Origin: Palleronia sp. THAF1 | Lineage (GTDB): Bacteria; Pseudomonadota; Alphaproteobacteria; Rhodobacterales; Rhodobacteraceae | Direction: 5' to 3' | Length of the DNA stretch: 64,000 nucleotides | NCBI RefSeq assembly: GCF_009363795.1 | Contig: NZ_CP045420.1 | Location: 1,717,001 to 1,781,000 of the forward strand | In this document: positions 23,283 through 27,035 of the stretch, piece by piece | How the letters are laid out: the number at the start of each line of letters is the position of its first letter | Position numbering within the stretch: the stretch's first letter is position 1 | Position numbers and translations under genes: made by a program | The notes under the pieces: model-generated | Told to the model about the DNA's origin: nothing | Seen by the model: the letters and a program-made list of their open reading frames with translations, nothing else | The model's database searches: none

Positions 23283-23520
23283 ATGGGGAAGATCACGCAT
23301 GGCAGTCGTCGGGGCGCGGTTTATATCTGGCGTCGGCGGTGCTCTACACGGTCGGACACACAATCCACAGGAATGATGCAGATCAGCTTGCGGACGCGAG
23401 AGTTGTCCACAGCAAGGCGGCTGGGCGCCCTTGTCTCAAACACGGCTGAGCGGATGTATGAGGGTATGGAAAGCGGAACCCTCACTAAAAGCGACGTTCG
23501 GACCTATCTCGACGCCTTTG
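23283..23520 (+). pseudogene. Truncated tyrosine integrase, N-terminal part
   Basis: The ATG at 23283, preceded by AAGGAGACGACG, opens a frame starting MGKITHGSRRGAVYIWRRR with QISLRTRELSTARRL. This is the N-terminal region of DUF6538-type phage or island integrases. About 79 residues remain before the terminal repeat of the IS3-family element at 23521; the core and catalytic domains are missing. It faces another truncated integrase across the IS. Confidence 0.7.
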
Positions 23521-23737
23521 TGGACCTGTCACGCTTTTGTGCCGCCCCAAGTGCTCGTTTAGGCCGCCTTTCGTTCGAAGGCGACGGGACTTTTCCAGCC
23601 CAGTGCTGAGTGGCGGCGACGTGGATTGTAGAAGCCGTTGATGTATTCGAAGATCGCAATTTCGGCTTGCCGCCTTGTTTCCCATGTCTCCCGCCAGATC
23701 AGCTCTGCTTTGATGGTTTTGAAGAACGTCTTTACTA

Positions 23738-23777
23738 CTGCCCGGCAGAGTTTTGCTGCGCAAAATCCCGAGAGGGG
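23738..23777 (+). repeat. Three-hairpin micro-element, copy A
   Basis: The order is CTGCCCGGCAG (perfect palindrome), TTTTGC-tgc-GCAAAA (perfect 6-bp stem) and CCC-gaga-GGG. It splits the orfB segment that normally encodes the CYDNAAVETF region, adding 41 nt. Confidence 0.8.
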
Positions 23778-23977
23778 GCGGCATTGTCATAACAATTACC
23801 CGTGCCGCTCATCGAGACTTGGAAGCCATGCTGGCGCAGGATCTTCTGATAGTCGTGAGAACAGTATTGGCTGCCGCGATCGGTGTTATGGATGCAGCCC
23901 GCGGGCGGTGTTGTGAATGCGATGGCCATGTTCAGCGCCCGAATTGCCAGGTCTCGCTTCATCCGATTGCTGTACCG

Positions 23978-24017
23978 CTGCCCGGCAGGGTCATGCACAG
24001 CATGATCCCGAGAGGGG
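23978..24017 (+). repeat. Three-hairpin micro-element, copy B
   Basis: The order is CTGCCCGGCAG, TCATGC-aca-GCATGA and CCC-gaga-GGG, in the same orientation as copy A. It adds 42 nt in frame to orfB (a reading PSRDHAVHDPAGQR between GWA and SNRMKRD). The middle stem differs from copy A yet remains fully paired. Confidence 0.8.
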
Positions 24018-24454
24018 GCCCAACCGATGACCCGCCGGGAATGCAGATTCAGGAACGAGCCTTTGTCCGCCATCGGTCCGAGGACAATGGCGAGTGCCAA
24101 ATACAATCAGGCCTCTCGCGTCCAGATATAGCTGATGTCACCAGCCCATTTCTGGTTGGGGCGTTTGGCAGCGAAGTCTCGATCCAGCAAGTTCGGCGCG
24201 ATGTTGAACTTGTGGTCGCTGTCCGTGGTCACTTTGTGTTTGCGTGTGCGCACAACCGATGTGCCGTTCTGGCGCATCAATCTGCCAACGCGGCGGTGGC
24301 CTATATCCAGTCCAATTCCCTTGAGCTCGTCGGTCATTCGTGGGCGACCATAGCTGCCCAGGCTGAGACGGGATTGCTCTTTGATGTGCGCCACCGTCAC
24401 CATATCAGATCGCTGCCGGAAATGTGTCCCGGTGTTCTTCGACGAACCTAAACC

Positions 24455-24730
24455 TCACGGCTTTTGGCTCGCGAAGAACTGCGTTGCTTTTTCTAGGATG
24501 TCCCGCTCCTCCTTGAGGATGCGAACCGCGCGCCGAAGCTGGTCATTCTCTTGGGCCAGCCCCAAATCCTCTTTCGACACCACATCCGTGTCTCGATGAG
24601 CTGTGATCCATTTGTTCAGCGTCGACATCCCGACGCCCAGATCATCAGCCACCTGCTTACGCGTTAACCCGCTTGTCAGCGCTATGCGCACCGCATCCTT
24701 GCAAAATTCGTCCGTCCGTTTCAGTCCCAT
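24455..24730 (-). CDS. IS3-family OrfA transposase subunit
   Basis: A 91-residue helix-turn-helix protein: MGLKRTDEFCKDAVRIAL, GLTRKQVADDLGVGMSTLNKW, then a leucine-zipper stretch QENDQLRRAVRILKEERDIL. This is the usual OrfA of IS3-family elements, made in frame 0 before the programmed shift into OrfB. It is intact, but OrfB is not, so it is probably a relic. Confidence 0.85.
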   Translation of the reverse strand: MGLKRTDEFCKDAVRIALTSGLTRKQVADDLGVGMSTLNKWITAHRDTDVVSKEDLGLAQENDQLRRAVRILKEERDILEKATQFFASQKP

Positions 24731-24793
24731 AGTCAGTCTCCCTTAGTGCAGTGAATGCTATCAAAGGAGCGGCATCAAACCGCGACAGGTCCA

Positions 24794-25363
24794 GAATGCT
24801 TCCTGCCAGGCCGTATACTTGCCAGTAATCCACGCGTCCAACAATTCGAGGAAGCCGAGGGCAGAGCGTTCCTCACGGCCGGTAAGGGCCTCGAAATTCC
24901 GAACAATGCTGGTGCGGCGCGGATCACTCGCCAGATTCTGCGTGAGTATCTCGACATTTCGGGCCAATAGCCCGTCTCCGAGCTCGGTGGTATCAGCCTT
25001 CAGATCTTGGTTCGCAAGAAACGCCCATGCATCGCGCATCGTGACGTTATGCCGGCGATCATCCTCCGGAGACAAACTGTCGGTACGCTCTAAAATCTGA
25101 AGCGTTTCGATCTTGCGGCGTTCGGTTTCCACGACGTTGGCGAGCCACTTTCGGCCCTCATCCACAGAGATCCGCTGTCCGACGATCTGGTTCATGATTG
25201 CATCGCTCTCCGCGCTGACCCTTCGCGCCAGAATAGACGCTCGACGCAGGTTTGTCGTCCTCAAGGAGAGCTTGATATCCGCCAAAGTTGTGGATTGCCA
25301 ACGCAGGCGACGCCGCCAGTGATACACGTTCCCACGACGAAAAAGATGAGGTTGAGCCAGCAT
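24794..25363 (-). pseudogene. Truncated tyrosine integrase (second), N-terminal part
   Basis: The protein begins MLAQPHLFRRGNVYHWRRRL and has KLSLRTTNLRRASILARRV, the DUF6538-type N-terminus of island integrases, followed by about 140 residues of the core-binding region ending LLDAWITGKYTAWQEAF. It is cut at the IS3 terminal repeat, so the catalytic Arg-His-Arg-Tyr domain is missing. The start lies about 120 bp from the tRNA-end attachment remnant at 25484, the normal place for an integrase. Confidence 0.75.
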
Positions 25364-25483
25364 GGTGCGGTCCGCTTCCTAGCAAGACAGACGAACGCAG
25401 AGATCTGGGATGCCACGCAGCTATGCCACATCCCGAAGCCTTTGAACGGCTTTACCCGCCTTTTCGGGGACTTACGCGGGAAA

Positions 25484-25504
25484 TGGCTCCGGCGGTAGGG
25501 ATCG
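25484..25504 (-). other. tRNA 3'-end remnant, probable attachment site
   Basis: Read on the minus strand the 21 nt form the last part of a tRNA: T-loop residues CGATC, the 3' strand of the T stem CCTAC, then CGCCGGAGCCA (acceptor strand, G discriminator and CCA). The sequence fits an alphaproteobacterial tRNA-Asn (UCCGGCG acceptor). The rest of the tRNA is absent, as expected for the duplicated att core left by a tRNA-targeting integrase. Confidence 0.68.
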
Positions 25505-25628
25505 GAGCGAAATTCTTACAACGCGCAAGTCACTGAGATCACACGAAGTTAAAACATACGTCGGACCGCTGTGCTACAGTTTTCTGTAACAGTGTCACAC
25601 AGACTGATCTCATGAGCAACTGCAGGTC

Positions 25629-25936
25629 TGACCTGCCACGGGATTTTTCCTCCACCGTCGATTAGAGTCCGGCCCAACCTGAGGACGGACAATGAAGCGA
25701 ACGAGATTCAGCGACGAACAGATCATCGGCATCTTGGCCGAACACTCGGCGGGCCCGAAGTGCGCGGACCTGTGCCGCAAGCACGGCATGTCGGAAGGCA
25801 CTTTCTACGACTGGAAAGCTAAGTTCGGCGGCATGGCGGTGTCTGAGGTCAAGCGGCTGAAGGCGCTTAAGGATGAGAACGCCAAGCTGAAGAAGCTCTT
25901 GGCGGAACAGATGCTGGACTCGGCGGCGATGAAGGA
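25629..25936 (+). mobile_element. Second IS3-family element, left end only
   Basis: The terminal repeat TGACCTGCCACGGGATTTTT at 25629 is of the IS3 type (compare TGAACTGCCCCGGG). It is followed by the orfA leader and gene. The element is interrupted at 25936/25937 by the IS5 element, and its orfB and right end are not found on the far side. Confidence 0.72.
25692..25936 (+). pseudogene. IS3-family OrfA fragment
   Basis: The frame begins MKRTRFSDEQIIGILAEH and has CADLCRKHGMSEGTFYDWKA, the helix-turn-helix of the OrfA of another IS3 subgroup, then KRLKALKDENAKLKKLLAEQ. It is cut after AAMKE, where the IS5 inverted repeat begins. The frame continues about 12 more codons into IS5 DNA. Confidence 0.8.
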
Positions 25937-25999
25937 GGCTCTGTTGCGCAAATCGGGTTGGGGATTCATCTCGTGAATCCAGCGTGATAGCTGGCGATT

Positions 26000-26981
26000 A
26001 TGAGCAGACCGACACCCCCGAGCTACAAGATCAAGAACTGGGCGGCCTATAACGAAGCGCTCAAGCGCATCGCTTCGCGACCTCGCTGACGATCTGGTTT
26101 GATCCCGAGATGACATGGGAGGCGACTCCGACGGGCAAGCGCGGCCGGCAGCGGACGTATAGCGATCGTGCTATCCAGACCTGCCTGACGATTACAGTGC
26201 TGTTCGACTTGGCCCTCCGGCAGACAACCGGCTTTGTCGAAAGCCTCCTGCAACTGAGCGGGCTGGACTGGACGGTGCCGGATTTCAGCACGCTGTCCCG
26301 CCGTCAGAAGACACTGGACGTGAGCATACCTTATCGTGGGTCGGAGGGACCGCTGCACCTTCTGATCCCCTCTCGGGATCATACTTCGCATGACCCTGCC
26401 GGGCAGCGGACAGCACCGGGATCAAGGTCGAGGGCGAAGGGGAATGGAATGCCCGCAAGCATGGCGGCGCCAAACGCCGTGTGTAGCGCAAGGTTCACCT
26501 CGGGATTAACGAGAAAGCTCTGGAAATTCGGGCAGTCGAGTTCACCAGCAGCGACATCGGCGATGCGCCCATGCTGCCCGAATTGCTCAACCAGATCCCG
26601 CCCGACCAGGAGATCGGCAGCGTCACTGCGGACGGCGCCTACGACACCCGAAAGTGCCACAATGCCATCGCCGACCGGGGCGCTGCCGCTGTCATTCCGC
26701 CCCGCAAGAACGCCAAACCCTGGAAGCCGGACACGGCTGGCGCGATTGCGCGCAACGAGGCCCTCCGCGCATCGAAATACCTCGGCCGAGCGCTCTGGCG
26801 GAAATGGAGTGGCTACCACCGCCGAAGTCGCGTCGAGACGAAGATGCACGGCATGAAGCTGCTGGGCCCACGGCTGATGGCACGTGACCCAGACCGTCAG
26901 GTCGCCGAGCTTCAGGTTCGTATCGCCGTCATGAACGGTTTCACCGCGCTCGGCATACCCGTCACACAGGCCGTGGGATAA
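26000..26981 (+). pseudogene. IS5-family DDE transposase, broken
   Basis: Pieces of one transposase can be followed in order: MSRPTPPSYKIKNWAAYNEA, EATPTGKRGRQ, RQTTGFVESLLQLSGLDWT, LSRRQKTLDVSIPYRGSEG, then after the breaks LNQIPPDQEIGSVTADGAYD, YHRRSRVETKMHG and AVMNGFTALGIPV. A small insertion near 26070-26085 shifts the frame. The hairpin element at 26367 adds 41 nt, and the usual VWRK Trp codon near 26485 is a TAG. It cannot make a full protein. Confidence 0.88.
26367..26406 (-). repeat. Three-hairpin micro-element, copy C
   Basis: Inverted relative to copies A and B. Along the plus strand it reads CCC-tctc-GGG, TCATAC-ttc-GCATGA (one mismatch) and CTGCCGGGCAG. It splits the IS5 transposase between LHLLI and the expected DSTGIKVEG and adds 41 nt, destroying the frame. 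Confidence 0.8.
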
Positions 26982-27035
26982 GTGCGTCCGGGGAAAGGGG
27001 AAGCTTGCCCGTCAGTCGATTTGTGCAACAGAGTC

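Follow-up and report, generated by a model that had tools for sequence, protein, structure and literature searches.

A hairpin element of about 41 nucleotides inserted in the transposase genes of marine Rhodobacteraceae

Three copies of the element in two decayed insertion sequences

In a 64,000-nucleotide (nt) stretch of the Palleronia sp. THAF1 genome (contig NZ_CP045420.1, positions 1,717,001 to 1,781,000; hereafter the window), two decayed insertion sequences (ISs) carry three copies of a short sequence. It is a non-autonomous mobile element of marine Rhodobacteraceae that has repeatedly entered transposase genes belonging to many unrelated ISs. Two copies lie on the forward strand within a single IS3 orfB: one of 41 nt at 23736..23776 (target TTTAC^GGCGGC), near the region of the third catalytic residue, and one at 23976..24016 (target GCTGTAC^GCCCAAC), which adds 42 columns to an intact relative. 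Their host IS3 occupies 23522..24792 on the reverse strand, misses about 77 nt and holds an unrelated insert of about 36 nt besides. The third copy (26368..26408, reverse strand, 41 nt; target GTGCTGTC^GATCAG) interrupts an ISPko1-type IS5 transposase gene (26000..26984, forward strand) immediately ahead of the codon for its first catalytic Asp, that of the DSTG motif; this gene is also decayed, with 8 extra nt and an internal TAG stop. An initial annotation of this DNA had proposed that three copies interrupt IS3 orfB twice and the IS5 transposase once, each adding 41-42 nt, and alignment to intact IS relatives bears out both statements.

These relatives, which are plasmid-derived, define the empty sites. 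Aligned with ISPko1 (L190) and ISSpo9 (L194), the IS5 copy consists of exactly 41 added columns between CTGATC and GACAGC, with no base lost or duplicated, and against the IS3 relatives L192 and L193 the copy at 23978 adds 42 columns and that at 23738 adds 41. Within the window, exact ATCCCGAGAGGGG is confined to the three copies; when two mismatches are allowed this 13-base tail has four matches, a number that 43 of 100 shuffles reach, and it is therefore the full 41-nt sequence that carries the signal. CTGCCCGGCAG with at most one mismatch has ten matches, which none of 100 shuffles reaches. Searches against Rfam gave no match at gathering scores across the window and none at E<=10 for 23600-26500.

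One hairpin between two conserved boxes

The element consists of a 5' box CRYTGCCCGGCA, one hairpin and a 3' box GAGAGGG, in about 41 nt (36-45). In general it begins with CRY-TGCCCGGCA, continues with 17-28 nt of middle (22 nt in 181 of 240) and closes with GAGAGGG. A first loose regular expression returned 873 strings, mostly noise, and was discarded; the main set holds 238 strings from fetched loci that have both boxes (at most two mismatches) and a folding middle. A few chance strings persist in this set (for example L016 minus strand 2161 and L167 763), and the pairing test was for that reason redone on 114 elements, with 87 distinct middles, selected by the boxes alone and not by folding. 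In these, 97.6% of the cells of the nine-pair middle stem are paired, compared with a mean of 76.5% and a maximum of 79.4% in 500 shuffles, and with 33-43% when the stem is slid. A bulged base on the 3' side of the stem is T in 84 of the 87 distinct middles.

The changes themselves are compensatory. Over 136 distinct rows, selected with the fold filter, the covariation score of the middle stem is 0.372 against 0.103 in shuffles, a value that none of 500 shuffles reaches, and 204 cells show two-sided changes against 58; the number of pairs with a two-sided change (8 against 6.2) is less striking, being reached in 39 of the 500. The initial annotation had drawn three hairpins and had seen, in the window stems TTTTGC/GCAAAA and TCATGC/GCATGA, a middle stem kept by paired changes. 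The latter proposal stands, the former does not: in the same 136 rows compensatory changes are absent both from the 5' palindrome CTGCC-GGCAG, whose inner pair is broken in 32 rows, and from CCC-GAGA-GGG, which does no better than shuffles. Since covariation is confined to the middle stem, the element has one hairpin and two boxes conserved as sequence. In the hairpin the sequence is free, and what is kept is the pairing, the bulged T and a GNA-type loop.

The loop has three bases in 207 of 230 copies; of these 207, 137 are GNA, 201 are closed by C-G and 184 by GC..GC. Loops of the GNA type with a G-C closing pair give DNA mini-hairpins of unusual stability, with a melting temperature of 78 C for GCGAAGC (PMC4686876). 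The preference for such loops speaks for a folded single strand of DNA, and it indicates which strand.

Exact insertion after a short target

An empty homolog spanning the junction exists at another locus for 160 of 232 tested sites, the other 72 having no such homolog within the fetched DNA. The net insert equals the defined element at 99 of the 160 sites, is one base shorter at 37, one longer at 19 and two off at 5; many of the one-base differences fall in the terminal G run. None of the five alignments made in full (window IS5, window IS3 and three Sulfitobacter comparisons) contains a target duplication. The two bases before the junction, read from gap-free empty homologs, are TC in 62 of 98 and CC in 15. 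In ISPko1, 36 copies map to 12 positions in both orientations, nine of which end in TC, two lie one base off such a site and one ends in CC. Insertion is thus precise, without target duplication, and follows a short target, mostly (A/G)TC. The first-Asp site of ISPko1-type ISs is common to 12 copies, from 12 loci and with differing stems; sites common to relatives may be inherited, so that the site counts are not all independent events. At one IS5 first-Asp site (L032 1806-1877) the element is partly doubled, TGCCCGGCAG and the hairpin being repeated.

Nearly identical ISs of Sulfitobacter differ by the presence of the element. An intact annotated IS30 of SK025 is empty and that of BL28 (98.4% identical) has one copy; the IS30 of S1704 (98.8%) has the copy of BL28 and a second copy of a different stem type in the opposite orientation. 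Likewise, DSM 110093 is empty and D7 filled (99.1% identical), and W027 is empty and W028 filled (93.4%); in D7 an additional base next to the insert brings the total to 42 nt, which keeps the frame open. Because IS copies 98-99% alike differ in this way, movement is recent. The exact empty sites and these presence/absence pairs agree with the initial annotation that the element is mobile and belongs to neither IS: intact IS copies do not normally contain the segment, and its borders are fixed by comparison with them.

Distribution

A search of the host's own genome (3.34 Mb, 99.99% complete) gives 20 matches at E<=0.01: 14 strong ones at E<=1.3e-10, a weaker one at 7.3e-7 and another five between 6e-4 and 4e-3. 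The search model, R2, was trained on nine sequences of this genome, whose high scores there are by construction. Among 194 related genomes, of which 119 belong to the family of the window (as assigned by handle order) and 75 do not, 43 are carriers at E<=0.01, every one in the window's own family; no match was found in the 75 others at this threshold and with strict search filters, which lose weak matches. An exact-pattern scan of GTDB found at least 120 stretches, and among the 80 matches listed nearly all have Rhodobacterales names. Two matches (JAFKDC01; L118, L120) are named Enemella evansiae TN21-6, nominally an actinobacterium, and are apparently a contig of G015; this label is probably wrong, since the genome tree puts G015 in the Rhodobacteraceae family of the window. 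Plasmid records match in 96 of 72,556 cases, all in roseobacter-type genera among the 60 matches listed, phage records in 0 of 50,697, and IMG/VR holds three stretches with the element pattern (L212, L213, L214). A diverged copy lies at about 3090-3140 of L081, from Candidatus Halocynthiibacter alkanivorans, in an IS5-like gene near an IS200.

Insertion sequences as hosts

The element is located almost only in IS transposase genes. When flanking reading frames were picked by homology to other fetched loci (141 of 146 loci kept), many of the 141 flank fragments matched transposase families of unrelated types, among them DDE_Tnp_1 (25), rve (18), HTH_Tnp_1 (12), Mutator (4), IS66 (2), IS91 (one) and IstB (one); one matched DUF6638. 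All of 20 sites that we picked at steps down the list belong to transposase, integrase-core or IS-type helix-turn-helix (HTH) families, among them IS110, IS66, IS256, IS4/IS5, IS3 and IS481 types, a few being assigned by HTH domains alone. Thirty harder sites, taken from 45 loci without fetched homologs, gave 20 in transposase or recombinase families and 10 without assignment. Several of these ten look IS-like by eye. At control positions 2.5 kb away from 20 loci (17 of them the same), two are of mobile type, one matching a transposase domain and the other a resolvase, while 13 have no family; the control frames were chosen by length and not by homology, which makes the control less sensitive.

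Most insertions break the host gene, and many hosts are decayed. At 164 sites with a clear frame, 100 elements are antisense to the host gene and 64 sense; the insert length leaves a remainder of 2 on division by three in 134, of 1 in 22 and of 0 in 8. The frame is open through the insert at 29 sites, and both 120-nt flanks are open at 84. Removing the element leaves 134 of 218 frames open, compared with 98-119 at other phases, a test that is weak in GC-rich DNA. Broken hosts are nevertheless copied: the window IS3 with both elements and its broken orfB (23521-24746) recurs at G000:C1:147414-148639 with 100% identity over 1226 nt, the match ending near the IS ends. Element-bearing ISs therefore still move, presumably by the action of intact relatives.

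Relation to known mobile elements

The initial annotation had likened the element to repetitive extragenic palindromic (REP) sequences and to Rickettsia palindromic elements. REPs with TnpA-REP are proposed to move as single strands, in a strand-specific manner, by Y1 enzymes, with a bulge needed in one group, and GTAG REPs (RAYT/TnpA-REP) are non-coding sequences of 20-50 nt with one imperfect palindrome, bulged in group 2 (PMC8266576), much as the present hairpin keeps its bulged T. There are, however, a number of differences: (i), no GTAG stands at the foot of the hairpin, where the 136 aligned copies have TGCCCGGCA or near variants; (ii), the two conserved boxes are longer, and exact insertion without duplication is documented here; (iii), the copies lie inside genes and not between them, at about 15-20 per genome instead of hundreds; (iv), the genome has no cognate Y1 transposase. 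In the way it works the element resembles a REP, yet by these features it is not one. A second comparison is with the CGTC-tagged REPs of Alphaproteobacteria (including dRS3, RPE-4 and RPE-6), with stems of 8-9 bp, for which no dedicated transposase is known (PMC3733652); the bacterial class, the similar stem length and the lack of a known helper are shared. That group is described as having a CGTC (TGTC, CCTC) tag, A-T first pairs, a loop of 4-5 bases and a CCA tail (PMC3733652). The present element has instead G-C first pairs, three-base loops, the bulged T and a GAGAGGG tail, and it does not belong with the CGTC group.

Members of the IS200/IS605 family (IS608, ISDra2) transpose as single strands, in a strand-specific manner, into targets such as TTAC or TTGAT, and the IS608 hairpin has an extrahelical T. 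The element resembles them in that it makes no target duplication and inserts 3' of a short target; unlike their ends, it has one hairpin in total rather than one per end, measures about 41 nt altogether and uses (A/G)TC. Rickettsia palindromic elements are also small palindromic inserts in protein genes, but they stay in frame within host proteins, and this likeness proves poor: 156 of 164 insert lengths are not a multiple of three, and the genes concerned encode transposases. Mitochondrial byps are likewise mobile hairpins, tens of bases long, that interrupt coding sequences; the present element differs from them in that it occurs in both orientations, has no matching take-off and landing codons and restores no frame.

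How the element could move

As the initial annotation had argued, the element is moved in trans, being far too small to encode an enzyme. On balance we lean towards mobilisation as a folded single strand by an HUH-like enzyme that acts on the two boxes and the hairpin, with a bias towards ISs left by survivorship and hitchhiking. The strand bearing the GNA loop would fold as single-stranded DNA; an HUH-type (Y1-like) enzyme supplied in trans would recognise the folded hairpin and the boxes, cut at both ends and insert the 41-mer behind an RTC in another single-stranded target. Insertions outside ISs would be purged or stay single and those inside ISs would be tolerated, IS-borne copies then being multiplied when an intact relative moves the IS.

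Several observations weigh against mobilisation by an HUH-like enzyme, the first being that no helper was found. The initial annotation had suggested looking for a REP-associated Y1 transposase in the same genome, and Y1_Tnp (PF01797) has no match in the 99.99%-complete genome; it is absent from 35 of the 43 carriers, and present in 8 of these 43 as compared with 5 of 76 non-carriers of the family. The IS91-type Y2_Tnp is found in 16 of 119 genomes (the smaller set), with three copies in the Palleronia genome, and reverse transcriptases in 39 of 119; neither has a clear link to the element, Y2_Tnp being missing from carriers such as G026, and the surveys of these three families yield none that is common to all carriers. 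In addition, the ends are not perfectly fixed: in 61 of the 160 empty-site comparisons the insert is 1-2 nt longer or shorter than the element as defined, and the second copy of S1704 departs from a simple model in having two extra bases at the left and too few Gs at the right. About one third of the loops are not GNA, and TC alone as a target would not account for the restriction to ISs.

A longer, autonomous version of the element was also looked for. The fetched loci contain 52 places with the left box only and 43 with the right box only; judged by eye, the 52 are mostly complete copies dropped by the filter, with a few chance matches and no longer version among them. In the Palleronia genome TGCCCGGCAG occurs 58 times (12 for the reversed control) and CGAGAGGGG 26 times (13 reversed), and the one pair seen by eye in the right order, a few kb apart, is not an element. 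A Y1 gene 0.6 kb from the L081 element was considered as a helper and rejected; it looks like a separate IS200, and the adjacency was judged to be chance.

After mobilisation by an HUH-like enzyme, recombinase alternatives rank next. The element could be a conventional double-strand one, either a miniature inverted-repeat transposable element moved by a DDE transposase or a site on which a tyrosine or serine recombinase acts, for instance a relative of the integron attC, and this would fit the fact that it moves, has fixed ends and has conserved boxes that are possibly protein sites. We consider it unlikely: by eye, CRYTGCCCGGCA at one end and GAGAGGG at the other do not form inverted repeats, no target is duplicated, the consensus of the 136 copies lacks the attC-type GTTRRRY box and its RYYYAAC partner (by eye), and the conserved feature is the fold and not the sequence.

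More doubtful is that the mobilising system is guided to ISs, preferring transposase genes (for example those of active ISs, through their single-stranded or circular forms), which would make the element an IS suppressor. The family assignments favour such guidance (20 of 20 and 20 of 30 sites, against 2 of 20 controls), as do the 12 copies that sit where ISPko1-type ISs encode their first catalytic Asp. Yet no sequence is common to the host families, inheritance may account for copies at the same site, and an (A/G)TC target suffices to reach Asp codons (GAY, on the other strand); survivorship and hitchhiking, moreover, explain the bias unaided.

Paired changes can also be produced by quasi-palindrome correction through template switching in replication, a mutational process that perfects imperfect palindromes, in which case the covariation would not reflect selection on a folded intermediate and would count as a further point against movement by an HUH-like enzyme. 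This origin appears improbable to a similar degree, for correction would remove the bulge, and 84 of 87 middles still have the bulged T; in addition, the shorter TGC/GCA palindrome of the same element is not kept paired, its inner pair being mismatched in 32 of 136 rows. Least probable is an element that acts on RNA, intron-like or bypassed by the ribosome so that the transposase stays functional: although the element sits inside genes and the host IS3s of Sulfitobacter D7 and W028 are still annotated as transposases (D7 reads through), it occurs in both orientations (100 against 64), keeps no frame, leaves just 29 of 164 frames open where 84 of 164 have both flanks open, has a loop preference that matches DNA hairpins and has no target repeat to serve as a take-off or landing codon.

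A possible class of hyperparasites

We tentatively suggest, as something that may well turn out otherwise, that the element represents a new class of single-stranded DNA hyperparasite: a hairpin of about 41 nt that lives and spreads specifically inside the ISs of Rhodobacteraceae, where it disrupts the transposases and profits from the mobilisation of the ISs in trans. That these genes also carry a second small insert, unrelated to the first, hints at several such families. No prior description of the element was recognised in titles and abstracts of the open-access literature (subscription papers and preprints lay outside this search), and the restriction to ISs is the part for which that literature offered no known parallel. 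At about 41 nt (36-45) the element is at the lower size limit for mobile elements and looks like one of the smallest known. Its minimal parts list (two boxes and a hairpin of free sequence with a bulged T) makes single-strand transposition directly testable, and marine bacteria that can be cultured offer exact pairs of filled and empty sites. Should the restriction to ISs exceed survivorship, the element would be a natural hyperparasite that curbs transposases and would explain part of the IS pseudogene load of roseobacters. For annotation, such inserts make transposases appear frameshifted.

Other features of the window

The core of the second small insert of the window IS3 lies at 24060..24090 on the reverse strand and reads CCATTGTCCTCGGACCGATGGCGGACAAAGG. 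The insert adds about 36 nt to the window IS3 relative to intact relatives; the core CCATTGTCCTCGGACCAATGGCGGACAAGG, often flanked on both sides by CTCG or a near form, also occurs in L015, L045, L046, L058, L068, L109, L111, L144, L165 and L182. Two open reading frames, at 23284-23609 (forward strand) and 24761-25363 (reverse strand), begin alike, with RGAVYIWRRR and RGNVYHWRRR, and presumably resemble truncated N-termini of phage-type integrases.

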